This document shows positions 45,606 through 54,043 of a stretch of 64,000 bases of DNA, one piece after another. Source of the DNA: Desulfobacterales bacterium RIFOXYA12_FULL_46_15 (lineage in GTDB: Bacteria > Desulfobacterota > Desulfobacteria > Desulfobacterales > Desulfobacteraceae); NCBI GenBank assembly GCA_001799395.1, contig MGTJ01000018.1, positions 1 through 64,000 on the forward strand. The letters run 5' to 3'. Position numbers and translations under genes: made by a program. Every line of letters begins with the position of its first letter. Positions within the stretch are counted from its first letter, which is position 1. The notes under the pieces were generated by a model. That model saw only the letters and a list, made by a program, of their open reading frames with translations. It made no database searches and was not told the DNA's origin.

Positions 45606-46595
45606 ATGACCTTATATCCGGAACAAAATGACAAAATTGAGAGGCAGGCTTTTCAGTATTCCCTCATGGGGGAAAGGTGGATTGGCTCTCCTGCGACCAT
45701 CACGTGGAGTTTTGCCGAAGATAGTACCTATGATCAGATCCTGAGCCGGAGTTATTCCGATTATCCTGATTTTGAGGCTGCCTTTGATGCAACCCAGAAG
45801 CAATTGGTGCAAAGTGCATTTCAAGCCTGGGAGGATGCTGCCAATATTGATTTTGTCGAGCAGGATGATTCTTCTGCCACCAAGGTCAGAATCGGGTTGG
45901 ACTCAATTGATGGTCGCAGTTTGAGTGGCGGAACCTTAGGTCAGGCCACTGTTTGGTCGACAAACAATATATTTAACCATGCTGCTATCCAGATCGATTC
46001 GGCCGACATGCCAGAGGCTGATTTCAGCACAAATAGCCCGCCCTCCGGCAAGTGGTCCTTTTTTGCGACCGTTACCCATGAGATCGGTCACGCTTTGGGA
46101 CTTGCTCACTCTTCCTTATCCTCGGCTTTGATGTATCGTTTCTCCGGCAGCACAGTGGACCTGACAGCCGACGATATTGCAGGCATTGTCGCTGTTTATG
46201 GTCAACCCCAAAGAGTATCACAAAGTGTCCAGGACCTTCCATCACTGGCAAAAGGGATTGACCCCACCATGTACCTGGCGGTAAATCAGGATGTGGCCTA
46301 TGCCGGAATTGATCCTGTCATGCATTTCAACACTTTTGGCTGGCTCGAAGGACGCAATCCCAATAATTTTTTCGATGTTCAATTTTATCTTGCGGCTAAT
46401 CCCGATGTTAGCGCCGCCGTCGTGAATCCATTGGACCACTATATCGAATTCGGCTGGAAGGAGAACCGGGACCCTTCCGAAAACTTCAGCACCAGCGGCT
46501 ACCTTGACGCCAACCCGGATGTTAAACTGGTCGGCATCAATCCCTTGTTACACTATTTAACGTTCGGTTACGGCGAAGGCAGACCTTTGGCTTGA
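45606..46595 (+). CDS. Matrixin-family metalloprotease with C-terminal repeats; probable type I secretion substrate
   Basis: Zinc motif 'HEIGHALGLAHSS' followed by Met-turn-like 'ALMYRFSG'; no signal peptide; three C-terminal repeats; T1SS genes follow. Confidence 0.85.
   Translation: MTLYPEQNDKIERQAFQYSLMGERWIGSPATITWSFAEDSTYDQILSRSYSDYPDFEAAFDATQKQLVQSAFQAWEDAANIDFVEQDDSSATKVRIGLDSIDGRSLSGGTLGQATVWSTNNIFNHAAIQIDSADMPEADFSTNSPPSGKWSFFATVTHEIGHALGLAHSSLSSALMYRFSGSTVDLTADDIAGIVAVYGQPQRVSQSVQDLPSLAKGIDPTMYLAVNQDVAYAGIDPVMHFNTFGWLEGRNPNNFFDVQFYLAANPDVSAAVVNPLDHYIEFGWKENRDPSENFSTSGYLDANPDVKLVGINPLLHYLTFGYGEGRPLA
46271..46595 (+). repeat. Three tandem protein repeats (YLxxNxDVxxxxxxPxxHYxxFGxxExRxP)
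   Basis: 'YLAVNQDVAYAGIDPVMHFNTFGWLEGRNP', 'YLAANPDVSAAVVNPLDHYIEFGWKENRDP', 'YLDANPDVKLVGINPLLHYLTFGYGEGRPLA'. Confidence 0.85.
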
Positions 46596-46991: not shown

Positions 46992-48650
46992 ATGACTGAT
47001 TTTTTGAAACAATGGAATAAGTATTTCACATTTGCCGCTTTGTTAAGTTGTTTTGTGAATATACTTCAGCTCACTTTTTCATTTTATATGTTTACCATAT
47101 ACCGCAATGTCATGATTTCTTACAGCGGGTTCTCCCTTGCCAATATTACAACTGCTGCCTTTTTTTCAATTATGGTCTTAGGGCTTTTTCTCTATCTGAG
47201 ATCCGGATTGCTGGCCATGGCCGGTAAAAATCTGAACCTGGCATTGAGAGAGAAGGTGTATGCCTTTATGGTGAAGGCGAATGTCATCGACAGCAAAAGA
47301 GCCTACCAGGGGGGGCTCAATGATCTCGATGCGCTCCACAATTATTTTGCATCACCAGCGATTTATGCCCTGTTTGACGCTCCATGGGCTCCTTTTTATC
47401 TTGGTCTTATATATTTTATTCACCCGGTCCTTGGTCTTGTTGCCACAGTTGGGGCTCTGGTTGTGGTGGGATTGAGCGGGCTCCAGGAGATTCTTGTCCG
47501 CAGGAGCATGAAAGAGGCCAATATTATTAATATAAAAAATTTCCGGTTTATTGATTCCTTTATGCGAAATGCAGAGGTCATCAATGGTATGGGTATGATC
47601 AGCGCTATCCGTGACCGGTTTTTAAAGGGCAACAGCAGGGTGATGGTGAATCAGACCGAATCCAGTAATGCTGCGGCTGCCATCCAGGCGGTGATCAAGC
47701 CCATGCAGAATCTGATCCAGGTCATGATTTACTGTGCCGGTGCCTATTATGCGGTTAGACACGGATTTGACGTCGGGCTTATGGTGGCGGCATCCATTAT
47801 TATGGGCCGGGGGCTTGCACCGTTGATGCAGGTGGTGTCTTCCTGGAGGTTTACGACACAGGTCAGGGAGTCTTACCGGAAACTGAAAGTTTTTTCTTCT
47901 TTTATTGAGCAGCAGCAGGTCCTGGGAATGGCTTTACCGCCTCCAAAAGGGCAGGTTACTGTCGAGGGTGCTGTGTTGAAAATGAATAACCGGGTCCTGT
48001 TGAAAGGAGTGTCCTTTGAATTAAGACCTGGGGAATTGTTAGGGCTCATTGGCCCCAGTGGTGCCGGTAAAACAACCCTGTGCCGGCTGCTCCTGGGGAT
48101 CTGGCCGTCCATGGGCGGAAAAGTATACCTGGATGGAAGAGATATTTTTTCATGGGACAAAGAAGAGATTGGAGAATACATCGGGTATCTGCCCCAGGAA
48201 ATAGAATTGTTTCCCGGTACTGTGGCTGAAAATATTGCACGGCTCGGAAAAATTGAAGCTGAAAATATTGAAAGAGCCATTGAGATCACCGGGATCAAAA
48301 AAATGGTGGATAGTTTCCCGAATGGACTTGAAACTCAGTTGGAAGGCGAGAAAGGGCTGAAGCTGTCCGGCGGTCAGAAACAGAAAATCGGTCTTGCACG
48401 GGCTTTGTATCAGAATCCCAGGCTGCTCGTCCTGGATGAGCCCACTTCCAATCTGGATGAAGAGGGTGAAACCCGGTTATTGACCGCTTTGATGAATATG
48501 AAACAGGAGCGGAATTGTACCTGCATCATGGTCACCCACAAACCATCCCTGCTGCAGTCCATGGACAAGATCATGGTGTTGAGGGAGGGCAGCATTGCCA
48601 TGCTGGGGACAAAAGATGAAGTCTTTGCAAAATTAGCAGGGGCGGCATGA
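46992..48650 (+). CDS. Type I secretion ABC transporter/permease 1 (PrtD-like)
   Basis: Walker A 'GPSGAGKTTL', signature 'LSGGQKQKIGLARAL', Walker B 'LLVLDEPTSNLD', H-loop 'MVTHKP'; PrtD-type TM domain. Confidence 0.92.
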   Translation: MTDFLKQWNKYFTFAALLSCFVNILQLTFSFYMFTIYRNVMISYSGFSLANITTAAFFSIMVLGLFLYLRSGLLAMAGKNLNLALREKVYAFMVKANVIDSKRAYQGGLNDLDALHNYFASPAIYALFDAPWAPFYLGLIYFIHPVLGLVATVGALVVVGLSGLQEILVRRSMKEANIINIKNFRFIDSFMRNAEVINGMGMISAIRDRFLKGNSRVMVNQTESSNAAAAIQAVIKPMQNLIQVMIYCAGAYYAVRHGFDVGLMVAASIIMGRGLAPLMQVVSSWRFTTQVRESYRKLKVFSSFIEQQQVLGMALPPPKGQVTVEGAVLKMNNRVLLKGVSFELRPGELLGLIGPSGAGKTTLCRLLLGIWPSMGGKVYLDGRDIFSWDKEEIGEYIGYLPQEIELFPGTVAENIARLGKIEAENIERAIEITGIKKMVDSFPNGLETQLEGEKGLKLSGGQKQKIGLARALYQNPRLLVLDEPTSNLDEEGETRLLTALMNMKQERNCTCIMVTHKPSLLQSMDKIMVLREGSIAMLGTKDEVFAKLAGAA

Positions 48651-50293
48651 TTAATTTTCTTCGTTCCTGTATAAAATATTTTGTGTTTGCAGGATTTTTT
48701 TCGCTTTTTATCAACACCCTGCGTCTGACCTTTTCCCTGTATATGCTTTCCGTTTACGACAAGGTTTTAAGCAGCGGCAGCCTGTCTACGCTTTCTATCA
48801 TAACGGTTATTGCAATTCTGGCACTGGTCGTCACAGGATGCCTGGAGTTTTGCCGGTCCACTCTGCTGATCCGGGCCGCGATCAAGATGGATGAACTCTT
48901 AAGTCCGCGGGTGTTAAAAGATATGCTCCAGGACATGTGCCGTGCGGACAGTATGAAATATACTTCAGGGCTGAAAGATATCAATACCCTGCGTAATTAC
49001 CTGGGAGGGAGTTCTATTTTTGCTTTTTTTGATGTGCCCTGGATCTTTATTTATCTCGGGATTATCTTCCTCATTCATCCTGTATTGGGAATGACAGCCA
49101 CGGGTGGGGCAATTATGATTTTAACCCTGGGTCTTTTGCAGAATTTATTGACAAAGAAGGATCTGGCCGTCGCCGCTTCATTCAACAACCAGGGCCGGCA
49201 ATGGGTTTCGACAAGTTTCAGAACAGCCCGGGAACTTCAGAGTATGGGGATGATTGATGCTGCGGCAAAGGGTTTTTGCAGAATCCATGACCGGGAGATC
49301 AAATTTAAGGATAAGGCTGGAAATATAAACCATATTCTGGGTGCATTCGGCCAGAGTTTCGGTGTCTTGATGCAGGTCATTATTTTTGGCGCAGGAGCCG
49401 CCCTGGTTGTGGCCCATAAAGCCGATCCCGGGGTGATCATTGCCGCCTCCATCATCATGGGTCAGGCCCTTTCCCCTGTGAACCAGGGAATTGCAGCCTG
49501 GAAGCAGACTTCAGATGCCAGGAACGCTTATGATAATTTAAAAAAACTATTAAAAACATCTGAAAATAAAATTTCATTGGCGCTTGAAACCCTGGACGGA
49601 AATCTGAAAGTTGACAATATCAGCCTTGATATTGGTGACGCCCGGGTTTTGAAATCCATTGATTTCTCTTTAAAACCCGGTGAGATCATGGGACTTGTCG
49701 GACCCAACGGCGCTGGAAAAACATCCTTGTGCCGGATGATCCTGGGAATGTGGGCTCCGAGCCTGGGTGAGGTGAAACTGGACGGGCTTGATGTGTTTCA
49801 ATTGGACAATGATTCATTGGGTCGGTTCTTTGGATATCTGCCCCAGAACGTGGAATTGTTCTCTGGCACGGTTAAGGAAAATATTGCCAGGATGGGGGAA
49901 GTGGATGATATGAAAATAGTTGAAGCGGCAAAAAAAGCCGGTGCACATGAAATCATTTTAAGATTTCCCCAGGGTTATGATACCGATATCGGAGAGGCAG
50001 GGCAGAGCCTTTCCGGTGGTCAAAGACAGCGGGTGGGGCTTGCCAGAGCCCTATACGGGAATCCGAAGCTGGTGATCCTGGATGAACCTGATTCCAATCT
50101 GGATGAAGCAGGTGAGCAGGCCCTGATGAGGGCGCTGCGTGAACTTAAGGCCATGGGTGCTACAACCATTATGATTACACACAAACCAGCCCTTTTATCT
50201 ACAGTGGATAAAATTTTGGTTCTTGAAAACGGGGAAATGGTTCGATTCGGTGATAGAAATAAGATCTTTGGGCAAATGATGCAGCAAAAATAA
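48647..50293 (+). CDS. Type I secretion ABC transporter/permease 2 (PrtD-like)
   Basis: Walker A 'GPNGAGKTSL', signature 'LSGGQRQRVGLARAL', Walker B 'LVILDEPDSNLD', H-loop 'MITHKP'; overlaps the previous gene by 4 nt. Confidence 0.92.
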   Translation: MINFLRSCIKYFVFAGFFSLFINTLRLTFSLYMLSVYDKVLSSGSLSTLSIITVIAILALVVTGCLEFCRSTLLIRAAIKMDELLSPRVLKDMLQDMCRADSMKYTSGLKDINTLRNYLGGSSIFAFFDVPWIFIYLGIIFLIHPVLGMTATGGAIMILTLGLLQNLLTKKDLAVAASFNNQGRQWVSTSFRTARELQSMGMIDAAAKGFCRIHDREIKFKDKAGNINHILGAFGQSFGVLMQVIIFGAGAALVVAHKADPGVIIAASIIMGQALSPVNQGIAAWKQTSDARNAYDNLKKLLKTSENKISLALETLDGNLKVDNISLDIGDARVLKSIDFSLKPGEIMGLVGPNGAGKTSLCRMILGMWAPSLGEVKLDGLDVFQLDNDSLGRFFGYLPQNVELFSGTVKENIARMGEVDDMKIVEAAKKAGAHEIILRFPQGYDTDIGEAGQSLSGGQRQRVGLARALYGNPKLVILDEPDSNLDEAGEQALMRALRELKAMGATTIMITHKPALLSTVDKILVLENGEMVRFGDRNKIFGQMMQQK

Positions 50294-50316: not shown

Positions 50317-51957
50317 ATGCAGGAAATGATTAAATCCGGGATTAGGTTTTTTATCGGTGCAGGTTTTTTTGGAATTTGTATCAATCTGATATACCTTGCT
50401 GTTCCGGTCTATATGATGATTGTCTATGACAGGGTCTTGTTCAGTTCCAGCCAGGCCACACTTTATACTCTGGGAGCGGGTGTACTGATAAGCCTTTTAG
50501 TGATGGGGGGAATTGATTTTGTCCGCCAGAGGATACTGGACCTGGCAGGCAATCGACTGGTTCAAAAAATGCAACCCTTTGTGATTAAAAGTTTGCCTGT
50601 CTATGCTGGAGGGCTTCAAGATCTTGAACTTTTAAGAAATGCCTTAGCCGGGGGTAAACTTTTATATGTCCTTGATCTGCCATGGATGCTGGTTTATTTG
50701 ATAATTTTATATCTTATTCATCCTTTTATCGGGGGAATATCCTTTACAGCAGTTCTCATAGCGGGAATTTCACTCGCCTTGCACAGGGTGCTTGAAAAAA
50801 AAAGATATATTCTTGCAGACCTTGCGTTTAAATCCAATTTAGATTCTTTGCAAAAATCCCTATCCCATTCCGAACTTGTATCCGGTATGGGGATGTACAG
50901 TGCCGTTATGGAAAAATACAGGGAGACCGATGATCAGGTCATGGCACTAAGGGCTGAGGCAGGCGCATTTCAGTCAGGAATAGAAGCTGCACTCCGTTTT
51001 TTTTATGTTGTGGTTTCAGTATTGGTTTTCGGGACAGGCGTGGTGGTGTTTTTTTCCGGTGAGATTACGGTTGGGGCTGTCTTTGCAAGTGTATTGATAA
51101 TGGCCCGGCTTTTGTATCCTTTGGAATGCAGTCTTTTTAATATGAAGAGTTCCATAGAGGCCATGGCTGCATATGACCGGTTAAAAGAATTTGTGAATAT
51201 AGAAAAACAAAAAGACAAACTGTCGTTGCCTGCTCCTGAGGGGAAATTTGATATGGAAGCAATTGGCCTGGCATTGAACGGTAAGACGATTTTGCATAAT
51301 ATTTCTTTTTCCTTGAATCCTGGTGAAAGTCTGGGGGTTTTCGGGCCTTCATCTGCAGGAAAAACCTCTTTGTGCAAGGTGATGCTGGGAATCCGGCCGG
51401 TAGCAGTAGGGAAAGTCAGGCTGGATGGGGCGGAGATTTCCCAATGGCCTATGGATGAATTTGGCGGATATGTGGGATATCTGCCCCAGGAGACTGAATT
51501 GTTCCCGGTAAATGTGGCTGAGAACATTTCGCGGCTCAGGGAAGTGGATTCTGAAAAAGTGGTAAAGGCTGCGCAAAAAGCAGGGGTTCATGAAATGATC
51601 TTAAAACTCCCCCAGGGATATGATACCAAAATTGATCTGACCGGCAAAAATCTTTCAGCTGCTCAGCGTCAGTTGATTTCCCTTGCAAGGGCTTTTTATG
51701 GTGATCCAAAATTTGTAGTCATGGATGAACCTCACACCCATTTGGATGACCAGGGGTTTAAAATATTGCTCCAGGCAATGGCTCGTCTGAAAACTGAAAA
51801 AACTACAACCGTGATAGTTACGGATCGCCCCAATCTGTTGGTGAATATGGATAAAATTTTAGTGATCAAGGATGGTCAGGTGGCCATGTACGGCCCTGCT
51901 AAAGACGTATTGAATCAGCTCGTTAACAGGCAACAACCCCAGGCAGCAGGAGTGTAG
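50317..51957 (+). CDS. Type I secretion ABC transporter/permease 3 (PrtD-like), degenerate NBD
   Basis: Walker A 'GPSSAGKTSL' kept, but signature 'LSAAQRQLISLARAF' and H-loop 'IVTDRP' (His to Asp). Confidence 0.9.
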   Translation: MQEMIKSGIRFFIGAGFFGICINLIYLAVPVYMMIVYDRVLFSSSQATLYTLGAGVLISLLVMGGIDFVRQRILDLAGNRLVQKMQPFVIKSLPVYAGGLQDLELLRNALAGGKLLYVLDLPWMLVYLIILYLIHPFIGGISFTAVLIAGISLALHRVLEKKRYILADLAFKSNLDSLQKSLSHSELVSGMGMYSAVMEKYRETDDQVMALRAEAGAFQSGIEAALRFFYVVVSVLVFGTGVVVFFSGEITVGAVFASVLIMARLLYPLECSLFNMKSSIEAMAAYDRLKEFVNIEKQKDKLSLPAPEGKFDMEAIGLALNGKTILHNISFSLNPGESLGVFGPSSAGKTSLCKVMLGIRPVAVGKVRLDGAEISQWPMDEFGGYVGYLPQETELFPVNVAENISRLREVDSEKVVKAAQKAGVHEMILKLPQGYDTKIDLTGKNLSAAQRQLISLARAFYGDPKFVVMDEPHTHLDDQGFKILLQAMARLKTEKTTTVIVTDRPNLLVNMDKILVIKDGQVAMYGPAKDVLNQLVNRQQPQAAGV

Positions 51958-51959
51958 AA

Positions 51960-53270
51960 ATGGAAGATAAAAATACAATTTTGAATACTGATCCGACCCG
52001 GTATATTATTGCAGGGCTTTTCGTTATTGTCCTGTTTTTTGGTGGTCTGACAGCCTGGTCGGTTTTTTTTCCCTTCCAGGGTGCTGTTATTGCTTCGGGT
52101 GTGGTCAAAGTGTCTGGGGAAAAAAAGGTGGTACAGCATCTTGAGGGTGGATTGATCAATAAAATATTTGTAAAGGAAGGGGATAGGGTTTCCTCAGGAG
52201 ATGTGCTTATTGAACTGGCAAGTTCCCAAGTCAGCTCAAATGTAGATCTTCTTCAGGGCAGGTTATGGGGCAAACAGGCTGAGGCATCACGATTCAAGGC
52301 TGAAGCGGGGATGAAATCGGAAATAGCCTGGTCTGAAGAATTTGAAAAATTGAAGGGGAATAGAGAAATTTCCGAAATTATTCTCACGGAAGAAAAAATT
52401 TTTTCATCAAGACGTTCTGATTTGCAAGGAAAAGTAGAATTGTATAATTCCCAGATAAAGCAACTGGGGAATCGGATTGAAGGTGCAAAAGAAGAGCTGA
52501 AAAGCCTTGAGGAAATTATCTTGAATCTGGAAGAAGATCTGAAAAGCAAACGACCCCTTGTAAAGGACAAATATCTGGGGAAAACCAATGTCCTTGAACT
52601 TGAACGAATCCTGTCCGAACAAAAAGGGCGGAGGGGAAAGCTCAACCAGGATATTGCCCAGTTTCATCAAATGATCCAGGAATTTCAACTTCGTATCGTG
52701 GACACCGAAAACCAGTATAAGGAAAAGGCGGTTTCGGAACTGGGGCAGGTGACCGACGCCATATTTGAGATACAAGAACAGATCAAGCCCCAGTTGGATG
52801 CAAAAGAGCGCTTGGAGATACGGGCACCGGTCAGCGGCACAGTGATCAATATGCAGATCCATTCTGAAGAAAGCGGTGTGGTCCGGCCTGGAATGCCCTT
52901 GCTTGAAATTGTGCCTGAAGATTTAAAAATGATCATAAAAGCCCAGGTTCGGCCCCAGGACATTGTGAGTGTAAAAGCCGGACAGGAGACCAAGGTGCAG
53001 TTAGCCGCATTTCAGAGAAAATCAACACCGCCGGTAAAAGGAAAGGTGATCTATGTGTCACCGGACTTGCTCAGCCAACAGAACGCCCAGGGATTTGTGT
53101 CTTATTATGAAGCCCATGTGGAAATAGACCCGGAAGATCTGGCTGCTAAAAATGCCTACCTTTCGCCCGGAATGCCTGTTTCCTGTTATATTACGACAGA
53201 AAAGCGGACTGTAATCAGTTATCTTCTGGGACCATTGCTGAAAAATGTAGATACGGCACTACGTGAGTAA
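51960..53270 (+). CDS. HlyD-family type I secretion periplasmic adaptor
   Basis: N-terminal TM; 'GAVIASGVVKVSGEKKVVQHLEGGLINKIFVKEGDRVSSGDVLIEL', coiled coil, 'LEIRAPVSGTVINMQIHSEESGVVRPGMPLLEIVPED'. Confidence 0.93.
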   Translation: MEDKNTILNTDPTRYIIAGLFVIVLFFGGLTAWSVFFPFQGAVIASGVVKVSGEKKVVQHLEGGLINKIFVKEGDRVSSGDVLIELASSQVSSNVDLLQGRLWGKQAEASRFKAEAGMKSEIAWSEEFEKLKGNREISEIILTEEKIFSSRRSDLQGKVELYNSQIKQLGNRIEGAKEELKSLEEIILNLEEDLKSKRPLVKDKYLGKTNVLELERILSEQKGRRGKLNQDIAQFHQMIQEFQLRIVDTENQYKEKAVSELGQVTDAIFEIQEQIKPQLDAKERLEIRAPVSGTVINMQIHSEESGVVRPGMPLLEIVPEDLKMIIKAQVRPQDIVSVKAGQETKVQLAAFQRKSTPPVKGKVIYVSPDLLSQQNAQGFVSYYEAHVEIDPEDLAAKNAYLSPGMPVSCYITTEKRTVISYLLGPLLKNVDTALRE

Positions 53271-53344: not shown

Positions 53345-54043
53345 CTATGCAAGAAAGGCAAATTTGGATAAAGACTGTAAATGAGTATATACCATCGGCA
53401 TGGTTCCGTTCTTGACAAAACCGGCAATGGTTTTGTCATCCAGGGTAAGTAATTTTTCCATGTCAATACCTTTGAATCCATTAACGCTTCTTTGTTGGCC
53501 GTTAATTTGAAAATCAAATTTACGTGCGGCAATCAATTCTTTTTCAGCCAGTGCAGTGAACAGAGTTTTTGTCACAGCCAATTCCTGGTGATAAAGCTTT
53601 AATGTGCTAAAAATACCCTGAATAAATTCATTGGGCTCTCCGTCAGCCGTAAAAAGGGGCTCTCCCTGACCCGCAGCAAAATGTTCGGCATTCCGGTCCA
53701 GGCATAGGGCATATTGATCTTCTTTGTTTTCAATTTTTGCAAAAACAAAGGGATATAGCCGGATGCAAAGAGGGATATAGGGGGCTTTCCATCTGCCCTG
53801 TTCGTCCACATATCGGTTCATTCCTTCCTTAATGGACAGCAGGGCCATGGGGGTCGGATTGCCATCGGCAGGAAGGATGATGGGATAAAATTGTGATACC
53901 GGCAGCATCTCTGAAAAAGAAATCGGTACCGATGAAATGGTTTTTGCAAAATTAAAGGTTTGCAATTTTGATAATCTGAGTTCCTGGTGTTTTGATTTAT
54001 CAAGCGGTTCAAGGTTTTCATGTGGTTCAAGAGCTTTAGACAT
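53345..54043 (-). CDS. SapC-family protein (S-layer-associated)
   Basis: 'HQELRLSKLQTFNFAKTISSVPISFSEMLPVSQFYPIILPADGNPTPMALLSIKEGMNRYVDEQGRWKAPYIPLCIRLYPFVFA' SapC pattern. Confidence 0.85.
   Translation of the reverse strand: MSKALEPHENLEPLDKSKHQELRLSKLQTFNFAKTISSVPISFSEMLPVSQFYPIILPADGNPTPMALLSIKEGMNRYVDEQGRWKAPYIPLCIRLYPFVFAKIENKEDQYALCLDRNAEHFAAGQGEPLFTADGEPNEFIQGIFSTLKLYHQELAVTKTLFTALAEKELIAARKFDFQINGQQRSVNGFKGIDMEKLLTLDDKTIAGFVKNGTMPMVYTHLQSLSKFAFLA

Follow-up and report, generated by a model that had tools for sequence, protein, structure and literature searches.

A single ABC gene is generally assumed to drive a type I secretion system (T1SS). The MARTX T1SS uses two ABC proteins, RtxB and RtxE, which are both needed and have been suggested to form a heterodimer (PMC3034196, PMC4316617). 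In the HlyB/HlyD complex, three HlyB dimers stand with six HlyD subunits and only one of the dimers is transport competent (PMC11026475, PMC9751043). The H662A mutant of HlyB binds ATP and its NBDs dimerise, with no hydrolysis and no surface-exposed substrate detected (PMC5018854). Common features of T1SS membrane domains include an FxT kink motif in TM3 and, in TM6, a Trp followed by a hydrophilic residue; the substrate entry window has a gating residue, R307 of A. aeolicus PrtD (AaPrtD) (PMC8277102). In TAP, the Walker B Glu and the H-switch His are changed in TAP1 and the signature of TAP2 is LAAGQ, all of these changes falling in NBS I (PMC5277011). In the open-access literature that we searched, no PrtD operon with three ABC genes is described. 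Here we report that some sulfate reducers of the Desulfobacterales carry three.

A type I secretion locus with three ABC genes

The DNA analysed here, called the window below, is a stretch of 64,000 nucleotides from Desulfobacterales bacterium RIFOXYA12_FULL_46_15. It carries three consecutive genes for PrtD-type ABC half-transporters, P1, P2 and P3, followed by a single HlyD gene (Table 1). The coding regions of P1 and P2 share 4 nt, the start of P3 lies 24 nt past the last base of P2, and that of HlyD 3 nt past P3; on these spacings the four genes are operon-like. The P3 reading frame starts with ATG and runs for 546 codons with zero internal stops. P1, P2 and P3 are the three best TIGR01842 matches of their genome; P1 and P2 exceed the curated cut-off and P3 falls short of it. 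TIGR01842 is nevertheless the top-scoring family for P3, which reads as a diverged relative of the PrtD-type T1SS ABC proteins.

An ABC gene with an adjoining HlyD gene, the arrangement of a type I secretion locus, was found in the window and in the other full triplets described below. A TolC-like gene is adjacent at the loci L035, L072 and L073 and none lies beside the operon in the window; the TolC-type outer membrane factor of this system may be encoded elsewhere. The genes around the locus are for polysaccharide biosynthesis.

About 400 nt upstream of P1 lies the gene for an M10 metalloprotease. Its homologues with the same C-terminal repeats, together with RTX proteins, adjoin the triplets L078 and L081. 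Judged by gene position, the M10 protease of the window is a candidate secreted substrate, and the cargo of P1-P2-P3-HlyD probably consists of serralysin/RTX-type proteins encoded beside the operon. The repeat block itself (YLxANPDV/NPLxHY) may serve as a module for targeting to the T1SS or for surface binding. SapC-family homologues were found near 6 of the 15 triplets (the window, L036, L071, L076, L078 and L080, with two tandem copies in L078), and this gene may belong to the secretion locus.

Table 1. Features of the locus and of P3, in coordinates of the window
Feature	Coordinates	Strand	Evidence
M10 matrixin/serralysin-like metalloprotease, C-terminal YLxANPDV-type repeats	45606..46595	+	PF00413 2.5e-18; serralysin NF035945 2.2e-13
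P1, PrtD-type T1SS ABC half-transporter	46992..48650	+	TIGR01842 539.6 bits, > cut-off 510.15
P2, PrtD-type T1SS ABC half-transporter	48647..50293	+	TIGR01842 620.7 bits, > cut-off 510.15
P3, degenerate PrtD-type ABC half-transporter, 546 aa	50317..51957	+	TIGR01842 479.1 bits, cut-off 510.15
P3 Ala109 at TM3 kink aromatic (AaPrtD F128)	50641..50643	+	aromatic in 64/64 others, 0/15 P3
P3 Met276 at TM6 Trp (AaPrtD W295)	51142..51144	+	Trp in 59/64 others, 0/15 P3
P3 Walker A GPSSAGKT, middle Gly replaced, Lys kept	51343..51366	+	motif reading
P3 signature LSAAQ	51652..51666	+	orthologues L[SA][ACI]G[QPR], one LSGGQ
P3 Walker B FVVMDEP, catalytic Glu kept	51712..51732	+	motif reading
P3 H-loop TDRP, His to Asp503	51820..51831	+	Asp 14/15, Glu 1/15 in P3; His 64/64 others
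HlyD-family T1SS membrane fusion protein, sole one in operon	51960..53270	+	TIGR01843 345 bits, cut-off 208.65
SapC-family protein	53345..54043	-	PF07277 1.4e-59

P3 differs from its neighbours in its ATPase motifs

P1 and P2 both have canonical ATPase motifs, with LSGGQ as signature and THKP at the H-loop. P3 has LSAAQ and TDRP at these places, as an earlier reading of this DNA from its sequence only had reported, and so has neither LSGGQ nor the H-loop His of a complete motif set. The sequence-only reading had also taken Walker A, Q-loop and Walker B to be kept. This is correct for the Q-loop Gln and the DEP of Walker B, and holds less well for Walker A, where Ser stands in place of the middle Gly of GxxGxGKT. 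We rejected the loss of this Gly as a diagnostic defect, since it is also missing in 6 of 31 other PrtD-type proteins and in the solved NBD of Serratia LipB (GPSASGKS). The D-loop of P3 reads HTHLD as against xSNLD, and its X-loop DLTGKN as against GEAGxx in P2.

We compared the 15 full-length P3 sequences with 64 others, namely 16 P1, 17 P2 and 31 other PrtD-type proteins including A. aeolicus PrtD. The H-loop His was present in every one of the 64 and in none of the P3 sequences, which have Asp throughout except for the Glu of L080. The first signature Gly was replaced by Ala, Cys or Ile in all P3 proteins except that of L082, the sole orthologue with LSGGQ, and was kept in 62 of the 64 others; three P3 orthologues read LAAGQ. 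Only the P3 of the window lacks the second signature Gly. Changes confined to this strain, which the sequence-only reading had named as evidence against its claim, were thus rejected for the H-loop and for the first signature Gly, where chance is no explanation either, and accepted for the second. The Walker B Glu is present in 12 of the 15 P3 proteins and replaced in three, by Gln in L036, by Asp in L080 and by Ser in L081.

LSAGQ together with an intact H-loop His was found in the only over-cut-off PrtD of each of two genomes (G121 and G156), both genes lying near a contig start, so that a neighbour may be missing. By itself, therefore, the change of the first Gly may be tolerated or mild.

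Distribution, descent and selection

A search of 390 genomes of the order with a profile built from six P3 orthologues, taken together with retrieved loci, gave full-length P3 at 15 loci, in the window and in 14 further Desulfobacterales genomes. All are ordered P1-P2-P3-HlyD, the contig of L077 beginning at P2 so that P1 falls outside it. At two further loci the contig ends inside P3 (L039 in G002; L098 in G381, where the start of P3 is readable). A search of 86 genomes of the family gave a patchy distribution, with a full triplet in 13, a contig-cut triplet in 2 and none in the rest; no locus in these 86 genomes had P1 and P2 without P3. Conversely, P3 was never found without P2, nor without P1 where the contig allows. 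Four triplets come from genomes assembled into no more than two contigs (G008, G151, G310, G365), which shows that the triplet is not an assembly artefact. The maintenance of a degenerate clade in 15 full-length loci beside canonical P1 and P2 and one HlyD bears out the earlier claim that P3 is not simple redundancy.

In a sample of 395 genomes of the phylum, three matches at E <= 1e-120 were found only in the window's own genome. G624, from a different family of the phylum, had two in the same sample; these PrtD-type matches stand about 3 kb apart on contig 59 and may mark a further multi-ABC system. In plasmid records the best matches were 37% identical, and the three records inspected have ordinary units of one ABC and one HlyD gene. 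L099 (G095) has two tandem, highly diverged PrtD-type ABC genes, one with an LPGGL signature, and an HlyD gene.

P1, P2 and P3 each formed one clade (SH-aLRT 100 in a quick tree made without bootstrap), and the sister of the window's sequence was L078 in all three clades alike. Since the P3 sequences are one clade, what they share is one inherited change and not 15 independent ones; P values calculated from the counts take no account of this and were not read as evidence of repeated events. L082 branches first within P3, with support of 93 for the remaining 14. If the root of P3 lies there, the LSGGQ of L082 suggests that the H-loop change preceded the signature change. A sister relation of P3 to P1 was rejected (AU p = 1.8e-5); no such rejection applied to a grouping with P2 or with the second ABC protein found at the two-ABC loci described next.

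These loci (L083-L088, in another family) consist of a P1-like ABC, a TolC-like gene, a second canonical ABC and HlyD. All their ABC proteins have the H-loop His and there is no P3. The first ABC falls in the sister group of P1. We rejected the idea that the middle gene is a hidden degenerate ABC, since the ABC profile did not match it and it reads as a TolC-like outer membrane factor (named by eye). The signature is PSGGQ or VSGGQ in some first-position ABC proteins and LSGGH in one second-position protein. By analogy with these loci, a P1-type and a second canonical ABC may already form a complete engine, with P3 an add-on, and we counted this against the heteromeric reading developed below.

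Is P3 a functionless, decaying duplicate? Its degenerate motifs and its larger mean inter-orthologue distance (0.78, versus 0.60 for P1 and 0.56 for P2) would fit such a history. We nevertheless hold it to be extremely improbable: the frame is intact in 15 of 15 sequences, specific substitutions are fixed across genera, and P3 has been lost from no triplet found. Over five pairs, dN/dS of P3 was 0.146-0.196, as compared with 0.107-0.152 for P1 and P2 (Nei-Gojobori; dS > 1 in the widest pair), and that of its NBD 0.099-0.218. P3 is under purifying selection, and on dN/dS and intact frames we rejected a pseudogene.

Membrane domain and predicted fold of P3

P3 also departs from the PrtD type in its membrane domain. 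At the TM3 kink (AaPrtD position 128) it has Ala in 14 of 15 sequences and Ser in one, and neither the FxT-type kink motif nor the TM6 Trp is found in it (Table 1). The position of AaPrtD R307 is basic in all P1, in all P3 and in all other sequences, and in only 4 of 17 P2. The remaining 13 P2 proteins have Asn, Ser or Gly there despite canonical ATPase motifs (Asn in the window), and in the P1 of the window both the TM6 Trp and a basic R307 position are retained. P1 thus keeps most landmarks, while P2 has lost the gating residue and P3 the kink and ATPase residues.

The AlphaFold single-chain model of P3 (pLDDT 83) matched AaPrtD (5l22) best among PDB entries, with a TM-score of 0.91 over 535 columns at 33% identity. 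The chain is thus predicted to have a complete PrtD fold of TMD and NBD, without a peptidase-like N-terminal domain. TmrAB and TM287/288 were further close folds, and the model also aligned to HlyB. P3 ends in a conserved tail of its own, QQPQAAGV at 51931-51954 in the window and similar in other P3 orthologues.

The joint loss of TM3 and TM6 channel landmarks and an ATPase residue could mean that P3 has a passive role. P1 and P2 would then form the hydrolysing, threading dimer or dimers, and P3 a non-hydrolysing dimer of its own in the passive positions of a trimer of dimers, serving mainly as an anchor for HlyD. HlyB/HlyD is a precedent for a T1SS built with more than one ABC dimer, of which one is transport competent (PMC11026475, PMC9751043), and L083-L088 pair a P1-like with a second canonical ABC without P3. 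The evolutionary distances point weakly the same way, and to that extent away from the heteromeric reading below: in partial correlations over the full set P1 was linked to P2, and P3 to HlyD more strongly than to P1 or P2. This is a hint only, since 14 loci are too few to lean on and the outcome shifts without L082. We doubt this arrangement all the same. Its stoichiometry is established for HlyB and not for PrtD-type systems, the NBD of P3 is constrained about as much as those of P1 and P2, and a Walker A Lys and a Q-loop exceed the needs of a pure scaffold. Rather unlikely, too, in our estimate, is a division of labour in a multi-engine T1SS in which P1 would be the threading channel, P2 a second motor and P3 a non-hydrolysing, ATP-holding subunit.

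Arrangement of the ATP sites

In known asymmetric ABC exporters, one subunit brings the defective H-loop or Walker B and the other the defective signature, so that both fall in a single site. In P3, unlike in these exporters, the H-loop and signature defects are in cis, and P1 and P2 are canonical; the defects thus do not gather in one composite site while leaving the other consensus. Because both lie on the same chain, pairing with a canonical partner would place the Asp of P3 and its LSAAQ in separate sites, and neither composite site would be fully consensus, the LSAAQ of the window being the worst case.

This bears on the earlier proposal that loss of the H-loop His and of signature Gly in one chain is typical of a subunit of an asymmetric heterodimer, which found no support in that form, since TAP splits its defects between subunits to meet in one site. 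The LAAGQ of three P3 orthologues is the degenerate signature of TAP2, and TmrAB and TM287/288 are among the close folds of the P3 model. With the defects in cis, however, and two canonical partners present where one would be expected, we regard a textbook subunit in the style of TAP or TM287/288 as very unlikely.

Since HlyB H662A binds ATP without hydrolysing it, loss of the His would be a severe defect. By analogy with this inactive mutant, a P3 homodimer would probably not hydrolyse ATP and is unlikely to power export alone. The same mutant argues against P1, P2 and P3 being independent homodimeric exporters with different substrates and a common HlyD, in which P3 would be a slow or altered ATPase with a functional acidic H-loop (PMC5018854). 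So do the loss of the Walker B Glu in 3 of 15 P3 proteins and the constant company of P2, and of P1 where it can be seen. The H-loop of P3 is strictly acidic and not variable, which suggests selection for an acid, and LSAGQ occurs with an intact His in sole over-cut-off PrtD proteins; weighing both sides, we think independent exporters improbable.

A dimer of P3 with a partner would likely have one weakened but working site and one site that holds ATP. The LSAGQ with His of two sole over-cut-off PrtD proteins makes a P3-containing heterodimer with one working site possible. On balance we lean, with modest confidence, towards P1, P2, P3 and the single HlyD forming a heteromeric T1SS in which P3 is an attenuated ATP-binding subunit that partners P1 and/or P2. 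The conserved order of the triplet, the co-inheritance of its clades, the low dN/dS and the MARTX precedent favour this heteromeric reading. P1 and P2 would be the canonical hydrolysing subunits. P3 would be a specialised paralogue that still binds ATP, having kept the Walker A Lys, the Q-loop and usually the Walker B Glu, and that hydrolyses it poorly, its H-loop His being Asp; the PrtD channel-kink residues are missing from it as well. Pairing with P1 and/or P2, it would leave one site holding ATP without turnover, as we infer, and hydrolysis would take place at the partner's site, made of the partner's Walker and H-loop residues and the P3 signature. The His needed for fast ATP hydrolysis has gone from P3 in every relative examined, and P3 thus probably serves as a dedicated partner, regulatory or structural, and not as a spare copy.

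Comparison with known systems

Three distinct ABC genes, one of them with a permanently acidic H-loop, would allow each position to be removed or tagged separately, which bears on the question why HlyB/HlyD contains three dimers, of which a single one is transport competent. Were the division of labour true, the asymmetry that HlyB-type systems show among identical dimers would be fixed genetically here, and T1SS ABC subunits with degeneracy in cis would be a class of their own, defined by P3.

The locus resembles the PrtD/AprD/LipB type (TIGR01842; AaPrtD 5l22) in fold, in domain order, in the adjoining HlyD and in the RTX/serralysin-type neighbours seen in relatives. It differs in having three ABC genes per HlyD where that type has one, and in the features of P3: the H-loop Asp, the degenerate signature, the missing TM3 aromatic and TM6 Trp and a score under the cut-off. 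With the MARTX RtxB/RtxE system it shares the use of more than one ABC gene per HlyD in type I secretion (PMC3034196, PMC4316617); those transporters fall in group 2 of the cited tree, whereas AprD-like ones are group 3, and they have two ABC genes, not three. Like TAP1/2, TmrAB and TM287/288, a dimer containing P3 would have a composite ATP site off consensus, with the LAAGQ of TAP2 recurring in P3 orthologues; the defects are in trans there and in cis in P3, and most P3 proteins keep the Walker B Glu. HlyB/HlyD (7sgr, 8dck), to which the P3 model aligns, is likewise an inner-membrane complex for type I secretion, in which six HlyD are combined with more than one ABC dimer. Its dimers, however, are built from identical gene products, while the locus described here offers three paralogues.
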